Shown here piece by piece: positions 15,029 through 60,604 of a stretch of 64,000 nucleotides of DNA. The position numbers and the translations under genes were made by a program. Source of the DNA: Moorella thermoacetica (lineage in GTDB: Bacteria > Bacillota > DSM-521 > Neomoorellales > Neomoorellaceae); assembly GCF_001267405.1 (NCBI RefSeq), contig NZ_CP012369.1:1576001-1640000 (forward strand), read 5' to 3'. Each line of letters begins with the position of its first letter. Position 1 is the first letter of the stretch. The notes under the pieces were generated by a model. It did no database searches. It was not told the DNA's origin and saw only the letters and a program-made list of their open reading frames with translations.

Positions 15029-15046
15029 TATAGTAAAATTAAACAT

Positions 15047-15127
15047 AAGCAGGGGTGCCGCAAGGCTGAGAGGGCTAAACGCCTAACCCTTTGAACCTGA
15101 TGTGGGTAATGCCACCGTAGGGAAGTA
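15047..15127 (+). ncRNA. TPP riboswitch (THI element)
   Basis: The conserved THI-box elements occur in order: AGGGGTGCC, GGCTGAGAG, ACCCTTTGAACCTGAT, GGGTAATGCCACCGTAGGGA. It binds thiamine pyrophosphate and is followed by a terminator 23 bases downstream, so it should shut off the thiamine thiazole operon when TPP is abundant. Confidence 0.97.
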
Positions 15128-15150
15128 ATGATGATTGGGTGCGAACTAAT

Positions 15151-30872: not shown

Positions 30873-31086
30873 AAAAAATAAAACCCCACAAATGCCGTGA
30901 ATGCCGTGGTTTTTGAACCTGCTCTCAGCAGGTGGGTACCTCCACGGACACTTTTTGCTTCCCCTGGAAACTGGGGCCTGCAAGCCATGCCCGGATGTCA
31001 GGTTCCCTAAGTTTTGGTGTTGGCTCAAAACTGCACGGCTCTTCACGAACATCGCAGGGTAAAAATCTTTTCGTTTTCCCTTGACA
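30873..31086 (-). ncRNA. ssrS: 6S RNA
   Basis: The minus-strand spacer between aspS and tcdA forms a long closing stem. CGTGAA and GCCGTG (31034-31047) pair with CACGGC and TTCACG (30896-30908), with possible ATG/CAT and ACCC/GGGT extensions. Inside are a large internal bubble and the hairpin ACCTGC-TGAGA-GCAGGT near 30918-30934, typical of 6S RNA, which mimics an open promoter and binds RNA polymerase. Bacillus 6S-1 (bsrA) lies in the same place between aspS and yrvM. The ends are estimated from the promoter and the T-run. Confidence 0.8.
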
Positions 31087-41922: not shown

Positions 41923-42411
41923 CTAAAAAAGTCCAAGCAGGCGCCCGCCCAGTAGCACGGCCGTTAAAAATAAAGCGCCCACTCGTAAGCATGGTAAAAA
42001 TAATCCCACGGCTAATTCAGATAATGAATGCCGGCGCGAGAAATAAGCCGCTCCCAGGCTGCCGGTGCTCCCTGCCAGGAACAATCCCCACAGGGGGCCG
42101 AGAAAAATCCCGGCCATGACCAGAGCCGCTAGACTCCCTGTTAGCAACTGTTTTCCTGCCAGGACTGATTCTTTATGCCTCCGGTACCAGCGCCGGGCAA
42201 CTCCTTCGGCTGCCATGAGAGCAACGGTTCCCCCGACCGTAGCCAGGGCAACATAAGGGGCCGACAACCCCGGGACCAGGCCGGTGGCGCCCAAAATTAC
42301 CCCTGCAGCCCAGAGGAGCAATAGCCCCCGCTCGGGCCGGACTACTCCTGCTGCCATGGCCAGGGTAAAGGTTAAACCGCCAAGGAAGGAAATGGCTAAA
42401 TAGATATCCAT
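41923..42411 (-). CDS. Hypothetical membrane protein, DUF456-like
   Basis: A 162-aa protein with about five hydrophobic helices and many glycines, including GLSAPYVALATVGGTVALMA and GLFLAGSTGSLGAAYF. The glycine pattern resembles DUF456 proteins, but the match is loose. It stands alone between the cation transporter (about 120 bases) and a 276-base structured spacer. Confidence 0.6.
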   Translation of the reverse strand: MDIYLAISFLGGLTFTLAMAAGVVRPERGLLLLWAAGVILGATGLVPGLSAPYVALATVGGTVALMAAEGVARRWYRRHKESVLAGKQLLTGSLAALVMAGIFLGPLWGLFLAGSTGSLGAAYFSRRHSLSELAVGLFLPCLRVGALFLTAVLLGGRLLGLF

Positions 42412-42687
42412 TGTTAAGCTACCTGCAGGTTTGTTTTTTTACGTTTAGCATACCCCGGCTGAGGTTAGGTATACTGCCCGGCGTAAGGCCCAGCCGCTCC
42501 TTCTCTCGGATTGAGAGCAGTCATGGTCGCCAGTTCCCTGGTCGCACAGTTGTCAATACCGAGAGAAAATAATTTGCTCACCGGTAGGAAACCGGCGGAC
42601 TCCGTGTACTGGCGGATTCATATTAGTTCGACAATAGTATCCCTTTATTGGTGCAGATAAACTCTTCGTAAGCTTTATACCCTCATG
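42412..42687. other. Spacer with a long-arm inverted repeat
   Basis: No gene is seen. TTCTCTCGG (42501-42509) and CCGAGAGAA (42559-42567) are perfect 9-bp arms around 49 bases that contain a near-repeat GGTCGCCAGTT/GGTCGCACAGTT. A further CCGG-TAGGAAA-CCGG mini-hairpin lies at 42581-42595. It could be a leader of the minus-strand membrane protein gene or a terminator region for the opuC operon; neither fits a known class. Confidence 0.4.
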
Positions 42688-43602
42688 TTACTTGATCAGG
42701 CCTTTTTTCAGCAGGAAATCTCTTGCCACCTGGGCCACTTCCTTTTTTTCCTCGTCGACCTGATAATTCAGCTGACGCATCTCATCATCATTGAGCTGGC
42801 CCGCCAGCTTGTTCAGGACTTCTTCCAGCTGGGGATACTTCTCGAGGGTGTCCATACGTACCAACGGTGCAGCAAAGTAGGGCGGGAAGAATTGTTTATC
42901 ATCTTCCAGGATCTTTAGCTTATAGGTAATCAACTGGCCGTCGGTGGCGAAGGCGTCGATCACATCTACCATCTTGTTATGAATGGCTTCGTATTTTAAG
43001 CCGGTTTCCATCTGCTTGGTGCTTTTGAAATTTAGCCCGTAAGTGACAATTAAGCCGTCATAGCCGTCCGGGCGGTTAAAAAATTCCTGCTCGGCCCCGA
43101 GTACCATCTCACCGGCTACGCTTTTCAGGTCGGATATTTTTTGTAAGTTACGCTGTCGAGCAACCTCCTCCGGTACCGCAAGGGCGTAGGTGTTATTAAA
43201 GCCAAAGGGTTTCAGCCACTTTAGCTTAAACTGCTCGTTGTATGCCTTTTGAACTGCATCGTAAGCCTCCTGGGGGTCATTGATAACATCCCTTTTTAAG
43301 ATTGCCACTAGGCCGGTACCGGTGTAGTCAGCGTAGAGATCAAGGTCGCCTTTTTTAAGGGCGTTAAAGTTAACCAATGTACCGCTCAAGTTCAATTTGC
43401 GTTCCACCTTCAGGTCCGTATGGGCTTCTATGAGCTGGGCCATTATCTCGCCAAGGAGAATGTTTTCGGTAAAGTCCTTGGACCCTACAACCACTGTGCC
43501 TTTAGCCCTGGTTCCACTGCAGCCGGCAGCTACAAATAGCAACATAGCGATGCCTGTAAATAGCGCGATCAGCTTCCCCACTCGTTTGGATTTCTGGCGC
43601 AA
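42688..43602 (-). CDS. opuCC: Osmoprotectant ABC transporter substrate-binding lipoprotein
   Basis: A 304-aa OpuAC/OsmX-family protein. It has an N-terminal signal with the lipobox VAAGC, then KGTVVVGSKDFTENILLGEI, typical of glycine betaine/choline-binding proteins of the OpuC type. It lies outside the membrane, lipid-anchored. It is the last gene of the operon. Confidence 0.92.
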   Translation of the reverse strand: MRQKSKRVGKLIALFTGIAMLLFVAAGCSGTRAKGTVVVGSKDFTENILLGEIMAQLIEAHTDLKVERKLNLSGTLVNFNALKKGDLDLYADYTGTGLVAILKRDVINDPQEAYDAVQKAYNEQFKLKWLKPFGFNNTYALAVPEEVARQRNLQKISDLKSVAGEMVLGAEQEFFNRPDGYDGLIVTYGLNFKSTKQMETGLKYEAIHNKMVDVIDAFATDGQLITYKLKILEDDKQFFPPYFAAPLVRMDTLEKYPQLEEVLNKLAGQLNDDEMRQLNYQVDEEKKEVAQVARDFLLKKGLIK

Positions 43603-43635
43603 GATATCCCATCCTTTCTTTAATTTATAATTAAT

Positions 43636-44259
43636 TTATAATGCTGAGATAGCCTTTTTTTTGAGCCCCCGCGGAACCAATACTTGTTCCAGCAGGGCCA
43701 GTCCGGCGTCGGTCAAAATAGCCAGCAGCGCCGCAGGTACGGCCCCCATAAGTACCATAGTGTTGTTCCTCGTTTGAATACCGCGCCAGATTAGCGTCCC
43801 CAAGCCGCCTGCCCCAATGAGCACGCCGATGGTCGCAATGCCAATGGCCGTGACAAGAGCCACACGCATACCGGCCAGGATTACCGGTAGCGCAATTGGT
43901 ACTTGCACTCGCCATATTAATTGGCTCCTGGTCATCCCCATGCCTTTACCTGCCTCCAGCAGGCCGGGGTCTACCCCTAATAGCCCGGTATAGGTATTGC
44001 GGACGATGGGCAGCAGGGCATAAAGGAACAACGATACAACAAGGGTAGTATCCCCCAGCCCGAACAGCATCATCAACAGAGCTAACATGGCCAGGCTGGG
44101 AATAGTTTGAATCACCTCGGTGGCTGCCATTACAAGCTTGGCCAACCACCGGTACCTGGTCAACAATATTCCCAACGGAATGCCGCCCGCAGCGGCCAGC
44201 GCAACTCCCATTATCGACAAGCTGATATGTTGCCAACTCAGAGCCAGCACTTTATCCAT
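43636..44259 (-). CDS. opuCD: Osmoprotectant ABC transporter permease
   Basis: A 207-aa permease with five or six helices and the EAA-like loop ATEVIQTIPSLAMLALLM plus GAGGLGTLIWRGIQT. It pairs with the other permease at 44295-44945 to form the membrane channel. Assignment as OpuCD rather than OpuCB rests on gene order. Confidence 0.9.
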   Translation of the reverse strand: MDKVLALSWQHISLSIMGVALAAAGGIPLGILLTRYRWLAKLVMAATEVIQTIPSLAMLALLMMLFGLGDTTLVVSLFLYALLPIVRNTYTGLLGVDPGLLEAGKGMGMTRSQLIWRVQVPIALPVILAGMRVALVTAIGIATIGVLIGAGGLGTLIWRGIQTRNNTMVLMGAVPAALLAILTDAGLALLEQVLVPRGLKKKAISAL

Positions 44260-44294
44260 CTTTCGCCTCCTCTCATTGGTTTTGAACTGGTGGG

Positions 44295-44945
44295 TTATCG
44301 CTGTCGCAGCCCCCGCGGGGTTACCGCACGCTCTACAAAACCTAGTGACCAGCTGGCCAGTAGGGCCAGCAGGGCAGCGGGCAATGCACCGGCCATAATG
44401 AGCTTAGCGTCATAGGTGTGGATGCCGGCAAGAATTGGATCGCCCAATCCACCGGCGCCGATTAAGGCCGAAAGGGTGGCCCAGCTGATAATATAAACAG
44501 TAGACACACGGATGCCGGACATGATAACCGGGAAGGCTAAGGGGAACTGTATCCAGGTTAAAAGCTGTCTCCGGTTCATCCCCATACCTATACCGGCTTC
44601 CAGGTAGGCCGGATTTACTTCGCGAATGCCGGTATAGGTGTTGCGTAGAATTGGGAGTATCGAGTAGAGGAACAATACAGTCATGGCCGGTACTATACCA
44701 ATGCCAAGAAAAGGCAGAACAAATCCAAAAAACGCCAGGCTGGGAATGGTTTGAATAGTACTGGAAATACCGAGCATCACCGCTGCCACTCGCTGATGGC
44801 GGGCAAGAAGGATACCTAGGGGCACGGCGATGATGGTTCCCAGCAGTACTGAGCCTAGCGAAAGTAGCAGGTGTTTCCCGGTAGCAGATAGGATACTCGA
44901 GCCTTTGGCAGCCAAAAACTCCGTCCAGCTAAGCACTAGCCTCAT
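44295..44945 (-). CDS. opuCB: Osmoprotectant ABC transporter permease
   Basis: A 216-aa permease homologous to its downstream neighbour, with ISSTIQTIPSLAFFGFVLP and GAGGLGDPILAGIHT. ATG 44945 is taken, overlapping the ATPase stop by 17 bases; a GTG four codons in is an alternative with a better-spaced GGGGAG. Confidence 0.9.
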   Translation of the reverse strand: MRLVLSWTEFLAAKGSSILSATGKHLLLSLGSVLLGTIIAVPLGILLARHQRVAAVMLGISSTIQTIPSLAFFGFVLPFLGIGIVPAMTVLFLYSILPILRNTYTGIREVNPAYLEAGIGMGMNRRQLLTWIQFPLAFPVIMSGIRVSTVYIISWATLSALIGAGGLGDPILAGIHTYDAKLIMAGALPAALLALLASWSLGFVERAVTPRGLRQR

Positions 44946-46059
44946 CTCCCCACACCACGGATGCCAGGGCATTGACCATGCTGGTCCTGGTGACCAGTCC
45001 CTTCAAGCGGCCCTCCTTATCGATTACCGGCAGGTACTCCAGCCGCTCCCGGGTGATCAGGTCAAAGGCCTCCCGGGCCGGGGTTCCCTCGAACACTACA
45101 GGAACGTCACGAGCCATCAAATCTTGCACCTGGTGAGCCCGCTGGTAGTTGCGATTCAATTCCTCGATAGAAACGGCGCCTAACAGCCGGCCAGATTCAT
45201 CGGTAACCAGCAGCGTATCCACCTTTTTACGACGCATGGTGGCAACTCCTTCGGCAACACCCGTATGGGGCCGTACCGTCACCGGTTCACCAATCATAAC
45301 CTGTTCTACGGTGCGCAATTCCAGTCCAGGAGCCAACCGTTCTTTGCCGATGAACGAGGCCACGAACTCGTTGGCGGGGTGCCGCAACAGTTCTTCAGGC
45401 GCAGCGACTTGGACGATGTAGCCGTCTTTCATTACCACAATCCGATCAGCAATTTTCAGTGCCTCGTCCATATCGTGGGTAACAAAGAGAATGGTCTTAT
45501 GCAGCTTGGCCTGCAAGGCCTTCAATTCTTCCTGCAGGTTTTCCCGCGTAATTGGGTCAAGGGCACCAAAAGGCTCATCCATAAGGATAAGCGGTGGTTC
45601 TGCCGCCAGGGCACGCAACACCCCGATACGCTGTTGCTGCCCCCCGCTTAGCTCTGAAGGGTAACGGTCAGCGTAGTCATCAGGGTCCATACCCACCAGT
45701 TCCAATAATTCGCAAACGCGCTGGCGGCGGCGTTCTGCCGGCCATCCCAGCAGGCGGGGTACCACATCCACGTTTTGAGCAATAGTCATGTTGGGAAAAA
45801 GAGCTATCTGCTGGATAACGTAGCCAATGTGTCGCCGTAACGCCACGGGATTTTGTTCCCGGATATCCTTGCCGTTAAGGTAGATGGCCCCGGAGGTGGG
45901 TTCGATAAGACGGTTAACCATTTTTAAAGTGGTGGTCTTGCCACAACCGCTGGGGCCAATTAACACAATAAATTCTCCGGCCTCGACTTCCAGGTTGAAA
46001 TCGGCTACGGCTATTCGATTGCCGTCATATACTTTCGAGACGTGTTCGAAGGTAAGCAT
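44929..46059 (-). CDS. opuCA: Osmoprotectant ABC transporter ATPase with CBS domains
   Basis: A 376-aa ATPase with Walker A GPSGCGKTT, signature LSGGQQQR and Walker B LILMDEPFGALD. Two CBS domains follow from about residue 255 (EGVATMRRKKVDTLLV and REAFDLITRERLEYLPVID). In OpuA the CBS pair senses ionic strength, and in some OpuC transporters it binds c-di-AMP. It is 48 bases after the GntR-RCK_C regulator. Confidence 0.94.
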   Translation of the reverse strand: MLTFEHVSKVYDGNRIAVADFNLEVEAGEFIVLIGPSGCGKTTTLKMVNRLIEPTSGAIYLNGKDIREQNPVALRRHIGYVIQQIALFPNMTIAQNVDVVPRLLGWPAERRRQRVCELLELVGMDPDDYADRYPSELSGGQQQRIGVLRALAAEPPLILMDEPFGALDPITRENLQEELKALQAKLHKTILFVTHDMDEALKIADRIVVMKDGYIVQVAAPEELLRHPANEFVASFIGKERLAPGLELRTVEQVMIGEPVTVRPHTGVAEGVATMRRKKVDTLLVTDESGRLLGAVSIEELNRNYQRAHQVQDLMARDVPVVFEGTPAREAFDLITRERLEYLPVIDKEGRLKGLVTRTSMVNALASVVWGDEASA

Positions 46060-46107
46060 AGAGTCCTCCTTTAAACAGGGTTGTTTCAGGCTAAAGAACG
46101 CCTGGTA

Positions 46108-46752
46108 TTAACCGTCATTAAGCTCTTGTTTACCTTCAGCCAGCCGGCGCAACCGGTCCACCGCCTTCTGGTTTCCCACCACCAGGAGCAAATCCCCTGC
46201 GCTTAATCGAAGCTCTGTCCCCGGAGAGGCATACCAGCGACCCCGGCGCCGTACAGCGGTAACGATAACTCCCGTAACTGTCCTCAATTGGGCCTCCTGC
46301 ACGCTCTTTCCCACAAGGGGTGAACCCGGTGAAACCATGATCTCTTCAGCATTCTGCATGTTTTTTAGCATGCCTGTTTTAAAGTGCACAATTTCTTTAA
46401 CCAGTTTATCGATTTCCGCATTTAACTTGTTACGCTGTTTGATAAGGGTATCCAGCCGGCGCTCCAAGACCTCAAGGGAGTTATGTTCGTGAAAATCCTC
46501 GATAAAGTCCCGGGCGGCCTGACGGGAGAGGATAATTACCCCACTCCCTGGAACTACTTCAACCACCTGTCGCGCCTGCAGAAGCGCCAGGGCCTTTCTT
46601 ACTGTTTCTGGCGAAACTCCATACTGCCCGGCTAAAATAGTCCGCCCCGATACTCTTTCACCTTCGTTGTAAGTTCCTCGGAGAATCTCACCGGCAATCA
46701 TTAGCGCAATTTGTTCATAACGGGCCAGTTCTTCGCTGCTTACATAGTCCAT
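46108..46752 (-). CDS. GntR-RCK_C regulator, BusR-like
   Basis: A 214-aa protein. The N-terminal GntR winged helix spans about residues 8-75 (GRTILAGQYGVSPETVRKAL). A coiled coil lies at about 92-130, and an RCK_C/TrkA_C domain at about 138-210 (GKSVQEAQLRTVTGVIVTAV, then LRLSAGDLLLVVGN). This is the BusR architecture; BusR is a c-di-AMP-dependent repressor of glycine betaine transporters in streptococci and lactococci. Here it heads the betaine transporter operon, making the same role likely. It could also be a YrvC counterpart, though YrvC has a different N-terminus. Confidence 0.85.
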   Translation of the reverse strand: MDYVSSEELARYEQIALMIAGEILRGTYNEGERVSGRTILAGQYGVSPETVRKALALLQARQVVEVVPGSGVIILSRQAARDFIEDFHEHNSLEVLERRLDTLIKQRNKLNAEIDKLVKEIVHFKTGMLKNMQNAEEIMVSPGSPLVGKSVQEAQLRTVTGVIVTAVRRRGRWYASPGTELRLSAGDLLLVVGNQKAVDRLRRLAEGKQELNDG

Positions 46753-46779
46753 TTTTAGTCTCTCCTTACCGCCAACTCT

Positions 46780-46808
46780 ATATTATAACTTAGATTGTCA
46801 CTTGTCAA
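46780..46808 (-). promoter_or_regulatory. Promoter of the busR-like/opuC operon
   Basis: Minus strand: -35 TTGACA (46803-46808) and overlapping -10 choices TATAAT (46782-46787, 15-bp spacer) or TAATAT (46780-46785, 17-bp spacer). Two near-repeats TTGACAA and GTGACAA abut at the -35 box, a possible operator. Confidence 0.7.
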
Positions 46809-46907
46809 CCTGTACCACTCCGCCATTTTTAGTTACAAAAACAGTTCTGAAGCCGCTATCATAATGTGAGGAAAAGTAAATTATTTCTTCACTTGGTTGG
46901 AAAACGT

Positions 46908-46950
46908 AAAAAAGCCGCCTAATTCTTCATGAAAGAATAAGGTGGCTTTT
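46908..46950. terminator. Bidirectional terminator-like hairpin
   Basis: A nine-pair stem (46912-46920 with 46940-46948, one G-T pair) continues after a mismatch with ATTCTT/AAGAAT. It has an A-run on the left and a T-run on the right, in the spacer between the secF end and the BusR-like gene. The rest of this 250-base spacer shows no gene. Confidence 0.65.
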
Positions 46951-47002
46951 GAACAGGCCCATCGTAACATACGATTCAGTGCCCATGACGGGCGCGCATA
47001 AA

Positions 47003-47036
47003 AGATAGCCTGCCGCATTTATCGGGCAGGCTATCT
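47003..47036 (-). terminator. Hairpin downstream of secF
   Basis: Perfect 12-bp stem (47003-47014 with 47025-47036), 27 bases past the secF stop. The minus-strand tail has only a short TTTAT, so termination efficiency is uncertain. Confidence 0.65.
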
Positions 47037-47063
47037 CCTGATTCGCCCTCTTATAACCTAACT

Positions 47064-47996
47064 CTAATGGGAAGTAGCCTTGCGCGTCTTGGCTTTGGTA
47101 TCGGCCTTGGCCACTGCCGCCTGCCGGTGGCGCTCCCGGCTCAGATGCCGGAAATCAATCCACAGGGGGCTGGCCGTAAAGATGGAAGAGTAGCAACCGC
47201 TGATGGTACCGATGAGCATGGCCAGGGCAAAGGTCCTGGTAGTCTCGCCTCCCAGGAGTATCAGGGCCAGGAGGGCGAAAATAACCATCAGAACAGTATT
47301 AATCGACCGGGTCAGGGTCTGGTTAATACTGCGGTTGACCACTTCTTCGATAGTTTCTTTCTTGCGTAGCCGCAGGTTCTCCCGGATGCGGTCAAAGATA
47401 ACAATGGTATCGTTGATGGAATAACCGATAATGGTTAGTATGGCCGCGATAAAGGTACTGTCGACTTCCCAGCGGAAGAGGGCGAAAAAGCCGATGGTCA
47501 CCAGGACGTCGTGGACCAGGGCCAGGATGGCCGCGAGACCGGAAAGGAACTCAAAGCGGATGGTGATATAGATGATCATCAGGATCCAGGCGATAACCAT
47601 GGCCTCTACGCCCCGGATGGTCAGCTCGCGACCGATGGTACCGCCCACCTTTTCGTTCCGCTTGAGATCCAGCTGCCCCAGTTTACTCTGTAAAGTGCTG
47701 ATAACCTGGTTGGTCTGTTCTTCGTTTAACTCCGTCGTCCGGATCAAAAACTGGTTGCTGCCCGATTCCTGGATGGAACTCTTACCGAGATTTAATCCGT
47801 CCAGGACATCCCGCACCTGGCCGGAGGTTACCGGCTGGTGGAACTGGACCTGGATAATATTGCCGCCGGTAAAATCAATACCGAAGTTCAAGACAGGCCG
47901 GTGCAGGGCCATGGCAATGAGCCCCGGGATAATGACCAGCAGCGACAGGGCATACCACCATTTGCGCCGGTTGACAAAATCGAAGTTGAAGTTCAT
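47064..47996 (-). CDS. secF: Protein translocase subunit SecF
   Basis: A 310-aa six-helix membrane protein with the periplasmic FGIDFTGGNIIQVQF motif after helix 1, and the RND-type core GYSINDTIVIFDRIREN. It uses the proton or sodium gradient with SecD to help pull exported proteins. It overlaps the secD stop by one base. The tail is Lys/Arg-rich. Confidence 0.95.
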   Translation of the reverse strand: MNFNFDFVNRRKWWYALSLLVIIPGLIAMALHRPVLNFGIDFTGGNIIQVQFHQPVTSGQVRDVLDGLNLGKSSIQESGSNQFLIRTTELNEEQTNQVISTLQSKLGQLDLKRNEKVGGTIGRELTIRGVEAMVIAWILMIIYITIRFEFLSGLAAILALVHDVLVTIGFFALFRWEVDSTFIAAILTIIGYSINDTIVIFDRIRENLRLRKKETIEEVVNRSINQTLTRSINTVLMVIFALLALILLGGETTRTFALAMLIGTISGCYSSIFTASPLWIDFRHLSRERHRQAAVAKADTKAKTRKATSH

Positions 47997-60342: not shown

Positions 60343-60364
60343 GAATTTAACGTTATGGCCACCT

Positions 60365-60548
60365 GTAAACGCCGAATTTCTTTTAAAAGAAACCGGGGGA
60401 ACCATATTCTTGGGGTTAATCCCGCTTCCAGTATACACCTCTCGTCTTTGTCCGGAGCCGGGCAACGGTGGGAGAAAGACCGGGAGCGGCATAGGGCACT
60501 TCCAGCCCGCACCCGTCAGCTAACCCCGGAGGCGTTGGAAGGGAGGTG
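60365..60548 (+). ncRNA. ydaO/yuaA c-di-AMP riboswitch
   Basis: The 5' ACGCCGAAT segment, CCGGGGGAACCA, GGGGTTAATCC and the 3' block CCGTCAGCTAACC followed by GGAGGCGTTGGAAGGGAGG match the conserved elements of the ydaO class, which senses cyclic di-AMP and usually turns off cell-wall hydrolase and potassium or osmolyte transport genes. A T-run follows at 60551-60556. It lies in the leader of a CAP-domain secreted protein. Confidence 0.88.
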
Positions 60549-60604
60549 GATTTTTTACTGGCCTGGCCAGGCGTAAAAAAGGAGTAAAAGGAGGATTGAC
60601 CGCT

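Follow-up and report, generated by a model that had tools for sequence, protein, structure and literature searches.

Does c-di-AMP control osmolyte uptake in Moorella through a repressor of the BusR type, and does such a repressor work as BusR does? The question is raised by a locus in positions 1,576,001-1,640,000 of the Moorella genome (a single 2,527,564-bp contig), a 64-kb stretch called the window below and numbered from its first letter, for which an earlier note had proposed control of this kind.

A BusR-family regulator heads the operon of an OpuC-type importer

The regulator gene (46108..46752, minus strand) encodes 214 residues, in which a GntR winged helix-turn-helix (wHTH) domain (PF00392, E 9.5e-12, residues 12-73) is followed by a long helix and a TrkA_C, or RCK_C, domain (PF02080, E 3.4e-18, residues 137-204). 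The top sequence match in the PDB is BusR of S. agalactiae (7b5t, E 1.1e-26, residues 9-202), the BusR of S. mutans also matches (7wjg, E 2.8e-24), and a homologue from Moorella mulderi is 97% identical. An AF2 model built from a 44-row alignment (mean pLDDT 84.8, pTM 0.45) places the wHTH at residues 11-74, one helix at 77-132 and the RCK_C domain at 136-206. BusR chains fill all top 13 rows of a Foldseek search with this model, and comparison with BusR 7b5y gives a Z of 16.3. The rmsd of the whole model to BusR chains is large (10.7-15.6 Å in Foldseek) owing to a different placement of the domains; the RCK_C domain alone superposes on the c-di-AMP-bound domain of BusR 7b5u at 1.3-1.6 Å. The long helix aligns with that of BusR ungapped and at equal length, and the linker has a one-residue gap. 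Five of the six DNA-contact residues probed by mutation in BusR (K36, R38, R53, K54, G70 and G72; PMC8517857) are identical in the regulator, K36 being replaced by Ser. By architecture and fold the regulator is thus a BusR-family protein, so that the domain order read by the earlier note and the structural comparison it proposed agree. It very probably acts on DNA like BusR.

The gene is the first of a five-gene operon on the same strand, with gaps of 48, -44, 35 and 33 bp. It is followed by an ABC ATPase of the OpuC/ProV type with two CBS domains (376 aa, 44929..46059; PF00005, two PF00571 stretches, TIGR01186 over its cut-off), two ABC permeases (225 aa, 44295..44972, and 207 aa, 43636..44259; both PF00528) and a substrate-binding protein of the OpuAC type (304 aa, 42688..43602; PF04069, E 2.4e-74), all on the minus strand. 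The top NCBIfam matches of both permeases stay below cut-off, those of the first being choline/glycine betaine permeases; among solved structures the relatives of the binding protein are either binding proteins of the choline/betaine/carnitine type or fluorescent sensors with that fold. As the operon encodes a CBS-pair ATPase, both permeases and a binding protein of the OpuAC type, the transporter has all the parts of an OpuC/ProU-type importer, as had been claimed for it, and we infer that its substrate is an osmolyte.

The same binding protein would suit an importer that serves catabolism, quaternary amines being methyl donors and the regulator a substrate-responsive GntR protein, in an organism that we take to be a relative of acetogens. 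This reading is very improbable: a search for MttB-type methyltransferases gave 0 matches in the genome, the effector domain is an RCK_C and not a sugar- or amine-binding domain, and related operators precede osmolyte genes (see below). Methylamine catabolism as the role of the importer was rejected on the missing MttB.

c-di-AMP machinery in the genome

The lack of a diadenylate cyclase had been named as a finding that would refute c-di-AMP control; the genome encodes one DAC-domain protein (open frame of 279 residues, hydrophobic N-terminus like that of CdaA), which we take to be CdaA. It also holds six c-di-AMP (ydaO/yuaA) riboswitches (RF00379). One of these lies in the window outside the operon (60360..60550, plus strand; Rfam), before a gene for a CAP/SCP-like secreted protein, and is evidence that c-di-AMP signalling operates in this genome. 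The genes behind five of the riboswitches, assigned by reading the sequences and not by family search, encode a lysine-2,3-aminomutase-like protein, an APC-type permease, the CAP/SCP-like protein, a trehalose-phosphate-synthase-like protein and a LysM/NlpC wall protein. At L050 (genome positions 373471-373599) the lysine-2,3-aminomutase-like gene follows the riboswitch; in other lineages such a gene follows the protein operator, or operator and riboswitch together.

Latch and ligand pocket differ from those of BusR

In BusR, an autoinhibition latch made of Trp159, Pro181, Phe182 and Tyr13 links c-di-AMP to DNA binding, and the exchange Trp159Ala uncouples the two (PMC8517857). We followed these positions through a family alignment of 58 rows, comprising the window's regulator, two PDB chains and 55 loci that are part of the matches found; near-copies (L014-L016, L019, L044) and a split gene (L037/L059) had been left out before counting. 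Position 159 is Arg in 46 rows (R-type), Trp in 11 (W-type) and missing from one, L069, in which the alignment is gapped from 159 to 161. The split into R-type and W-type is a single change on the tree (support 90/91). Pro181 occurs in 11/11 W-type rows and in only 3/46 R-type rows; position 182 is Phe or Tyr in 8/11 W-type rows and in 0/46 R-type rows, 28 of which have Glu or Asp.

The window's regulator is R-type. Of the latch it keeps the Tyr alone (Tyr12), with Arg157 (BusR position 159), Thr179 and Glu180 in place of Trp159, Pro181 and Phe182, and the polar pocket rim of BusR, Asn157 and His160, is absent as well (Gln155 and Thr158). The rim also varies among W-type rows (N157 in 4/11, H160 in 3/11). 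Having Gln at both BusR positions G154 and N157 is unusual and belongs to the Moorella rows, Gln157 without the peculiarity at 154 being found also in 5/11 W-type rows; T165, which is Thr in 44/46 R-type rows, is Ile in the window's regulator. Since latch residues and pocket rim differ, the published activation mechanism of BusR cannot simply be transferred, and since the latch is missing in R-type proteins, these must couple ligand and DNA binding in some other way, if they couple them at all. Judged by these residues, the regulator is not BusR proper, as it lacks both the latch and the polar rim.

The earlier note had counted absent c-di-AMP pocket residues against its proposal, and here the outcome is divided: the pocket differs from that of BusR, but the regulator keeps an Arg that alignments show to be common to the solved KtrA, KtrC and KhtT at the BusR-159 column. 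These three are named as c-di-AMP-regulated (PMC8517857) and share the RCK_C fold with the regulator (KhtT 7ahm, Z 12.0; KtrA 4xtt, Z 10.3). Unlike it, they are gating proteins of K+ channels or antiporters and not transcription factors, and they have N or D at position 157, where the Moorella regulator has Gln.

The differences at G154, N157, H160 and P181 would also fit an RCK_C domain that no longer senses c-di-AMP, in which case the same repressor at the same operator would answer directly to ionic strength or K+, or to another small ligand, and c-di-AMP would reach uptake by way of the ATPase's CBS domains alone. DNA binding by L. lactis BusR is reported to depend on ionic strength, and in E. 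faecalis and S. agalactiae c-di-AMP is a ligand of the OpuCA CBS domains (PMC10243994). We nevertheless consider this unlikely, since N157 and H160 vary in the W-type relatives too, and since other genomes have operator and c-di-AMP riboswitch stacked one on the other (see below). c-di-AMP as the co-repressor of the Moorella regulator is, in our reading, well supported by inference.

A predicted two-armed operator spans the -10 box

A sigma-70-like scan of 42200-47100 found a single site, the promoter before the regulator gene, with the -35 hexamer TTGACA at 46803..46808 and the -10 hexamer TAATAT at 46780..46785 (both minus strand), 17 bp apart. Shuffled sequence gave 4.7 sites on average in the same scan, which by itself therefore proves nothing. 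At this promoter lies TTGACAAGTGACAA (46795-46808, minus strand), which had been proposed as a candidate operator. It contains the -35 hexamer and one operator half-site, and that much of the proposal stands; as the entire operator it was rejected, half of it being the -35 box and its conserved partner in relatives being an arm beyond the -10 box. The likely operator, as predicted from these comparisons, is the two-armed site at 46770..46800 (minus strand), TGACAATCT-N13-GAGTTGGCG (GAC-N23-GGC), whose arms enclose the -10 hexamer.

A matrix of 44 half-sites, none of them from Moorella or PH28_bin88, was scanned at spacings N16-N30 and ranks this site first in the 64-kb window (score 15.09, N23; runner-up 13.66; reversed window 14.08). 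The site is a weak member of its class, with TTGGC instead of TTGTC as right arm and a score of 15.1 against 27.1 in L005. The extended block around the originally proposed string has one exact copy in the genome, at the regulator promoter, and three copies with 3 mismatches; the gapped pattern TGACAAN{18,20}TTGKC occurs at 6 places including this promoter, and 1+1 times in the reversed control.

The block ggttgacaRgtgacaaYcta is retained in 7/7 aligned upstream regions (six Moorella genomes and PH28_bin88), and L004, L018 and L005 keep it though their farther-upstream DNA does not align with that of the window; its retention exceeds chance. Across six relatives the operator site scores 15.1-27.1 with the same matrix, and an exact GAC-N23-GTC lies upstream of the regulator gene in L002 and L005. 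Exact copies of TTGACARGTGACAAYCTA are present in 6/11 genomes of the genus. In eight genus genomes searched for both gene and site, an exact site lies just upstream of the gene in 5/5 that have it and is present in 0/3 that lack the gene.

The two-armed site might be merely a conserved promoter, the regulator acting elsewhere: it overlaps the -10 box and abuts the -35 box, the window's arm is degenerate, and the matrix score is barely above the reversed control. We give this only a slim chance. The spacer between -35 and -10, normally free in promoters, is conserved; a matrix from other lineages ranks the site first, and at N23; relatives have perfect operator arms; and the exact site accompanies the gene in the genus.

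The operator form near regulator genes of other lineages

The published BusR operator is GAC-N22-GTC (PMC8517857). In its strict form it was found in 0/13 upstream regions in one cut; a different upstream cut gave one match, in L020, 205 nt before the Tyr13 codon and with arms that do not extend, which appears chance-like. At nine W-type loci it matched three times, never at a recognisable promoter. Near L020/L021, the closest outgroup (62% identical), neither arm scan nor matrix found an operator. A scan for the arms TGACAAC/GTTGTCA near regulator genes, seeded with L070 and the Moorella block, gave 39 matches compared with 13.4 in block-shuffled sequence. The common form, (T)RACAACTT-N-AAGTTGTY(A), overlies a promoter, either the regulator's own or that of the next gene, and is seen both at W-type loci (L008, L011, L012, L070) and at R-type loci. 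With up to two mismatches, the arms ACAACTT/AAGTTGT occur near regulator genes at N22 (7 times) and N23 (11 times), and at most 3 times at each other spacing.

At three loci (L027, L069, L131) a second operator lies near the first, an arrangement also described for the busA promoter of S. agalactiae. At L037/L059 (G162, same family) the importer genes are kept, the window-type regulator gene is split over two reading frames, and an operator-like site persists (matrix 13.9, N23).

The operator pattern is commoner in genomes with the regulator

We searched the exact pattern ACAACYTN{12,13}ARGTTGT in 398 genomes of the phylum, of which 85 have a near full-length regulator match and 313 do not. 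The 85 include G060, whose regulator gene is broken by two stops, and G162, whose window-type gene is split and whose second gene is full-length (L061); five genomes with N-terminal matches only (G002, G011, G097, G131, G196) were counted as lacking the regulator, and two of them carry the pattern. The pattern is present in 33/85 regulator genomes versus 24/313 others (p 4e-11), and hence absent in its exact form from 52/85, while the reversed pattern does not discriminate (11/85 versus 31/313, p 0.43). Removing the four genomes that defined the pattern leaves 29/81 (p 2e-9), and counting by family gives 19/36 with the regulator versus 19/104 without (p 1.5e-4).

The regulator genomes hold 40 sites in 38 loci, whose neighbours were typed by Pfam on 30 chosen proteins and by comparing ORFs of at least 80 residues with the window's proteins. 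Osmolyte importers (OpuAC protein or OpuA/C ATPase) are found at 11/38 loci (L005, L107, L109, L117, L118, L122, L134, L141, L150, L151, L152). Other neighbours are lysine 2,3-aminomutase (L074, L133, L140, L144), DapB (L108, L130), MscS (L114), wall hydrolases or NlpC/P60 proteins (L125, L126, L137), a family-3 binding protein (L131, L132) and a glycosyltransferase (L113, L145). Some loci have no evident link, for example an SLH protein (L116), an aminotransferase (L149) and sites inside ORFs (L142, L146, L147), and several scanned neighbours gave no Pfam family. As control we took 11 loci from the 25 sites in regulator-less genomes; 6 of the control sites lie inside ORFs, and by comparison of ORFs with the window's proteins none lies near a match to the window's importer. 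Genes of the same kinds as the operator targets are controlled by c-di-AMP and Na+ riboswitches (PMC9337991).

Co-occurrence with diadenylate cyclase, considered as a test of the c-di-AMP link, is uninformative (83/85 regulator genomes versus 302/313 others, p 0.74). The idea that regulator and riboswitch are mutually exclusive was refuted, ydaO being present in 56/85 regulator genomes and 203/313 others. One of the two regulator genomes without a cyclase is G060, where the exact operator remains (L151), the Trp-type regulator has two in-frame stops and the importer ATPase is in pieces; decay that followed the loss of c-di-AMP may account for this state, or else the assembly may be in error.

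In some genomes the operator directly precedes a c-di-AMP riboswitch

By Rfam scans, the operator is immediately followed by a c-di-AMP riboswitch in 4/38 loci (L125, L131, L132, L133) and in 0/11 control loci. Operator and riboswitch overlap by 6 nt in L125, and in L131 two successive operators precede the riboswitch. The family alignment includes the regulators of two of the four genomes (L033, L068), and each of them is R-type. A weak arm pair before ydaO (L155) was left out of the count. At L069 and L154, near-consensus operators just behind the regulator gene are followed by a ydaO riboswitch, and at L069 a lysine-aminomutase-like gene, as read from its sequence, comes next; the L069 regulator is, however, the one gapped at 159-161, a point against this case. 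In Dehalobacter, lysine-2,3-aminomutase is controlled by a Na+/c-di-AMP tandem riboswitch, and dapB and ablA are named as osmoprotectant genes (PMC9337991). Of the arguments for a role of such regulators in the c-di-AMP response, this stacking is the best, but it is indirect and comes from other genomes. None of the six ydaO leaders of the Moorella genome contains the operator, and the overlap of the two regulons is therefore seen only in other genomes.

The operator has targets of the same kinds as the ydaO/yuaA regulon, and a shared leader in some genomes. Unlike the protein, the riboswitch is an RNA that acts after initiation, and in this genome it sits on different genes.

A model for osmolyte control in Moorella

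Taken as a whole, the explanation that we consider probable is that an R-type repressor of the BusR family, a tetramer with c-di-AMP as co-repressor, represses its own gene and the osmolyte transporter. The tetramer would bind the two-armed operator, whose arms flank the -10 box at a distance of about three helical turns, with the coiled coil serving as ruler, and would block the one promoter that its gene shares with the ABC transporter. c-di-AMP made by CdaA would most likely be the co-repressor, held between a pair of RCK_C domains; at low turgor and low K+ the level of c-di-AMP would fall, the repressor would leave and osmolyte uptake would be induced. Ligand and DNA binding would be coupled differently from the Trp159 latch of BusR, perhaps by a contact (salt bridge) between Arg157 and Glu180.

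For the wider family, we lean towards regarding R-type GntR-RCK_C proteins as a second, Trp159-less branch of c-di-AMP-dependent repressors, with an osmotic regulon, a ruler operator ACAACTT-N12/13-AAGTTGT that is stacked on riboswitches in some cases, and a latch of Arg159 and an acidic residue 182. The regulon would comprise osmolyte import, beta-lysine-type osmolyte synthesis, a mechanosensitive channel and wall hydrolases in many genomes of the phylum. If so, one messenger would stop the same gene twice, at initiation by a protein and afterwards by an RNA. For this widespread, little-studied branch of c-di-AMP-linked transcription factors a predicted operator is now available, and targets can therefore be read from genomes. 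The stacked loci suggest that one second messenger acts on the same gene through repressor and riboswitch, the residue changes point to a latch unlike that solved for BusR, and in acetogens of industrial interest the operator would mark a salt-response switch.

Relation to BusR and to published homologues

With BusR of S. agalactiae, S. mutans and Lactococcus lactis the Moorella system shares domain order, long-helix length and most DNA-contact residues, and also a bipartite GAC...GTC-like operator over the promoter, predicted in Moorella, and a probable osmolyte ABC target (PMC8517857). It differs in sequence (about 30% identity), in having Arg instead of Trp at 159 and Thr-Glu instead of Pro-Phe at 181-182, in the spacing (N23 and not N22) and number (one site found and not two; PMC8517857) of its operator, and in heading an OpuC-type transporter of four genes. 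The earlier note expected the locus to broaden the range of BusR, which is mostly not new, as two papers already report GntR-RCK_C (BusR-like) regulators in clostridia and Clostridium spp. (PMC5919688, PMC6108528). No title or abstract that we found names the operator pattern or the R-type branch, full texts having been probed by keyword; nor did an N23-spaced R-type operator or riboswitch stacking turn up in print, in a search that left most subscription journals outside.

The window also holds a 6S RNA (30879-31063, minus strand) and a TPP riboswitch (15041-15140, plus strand).
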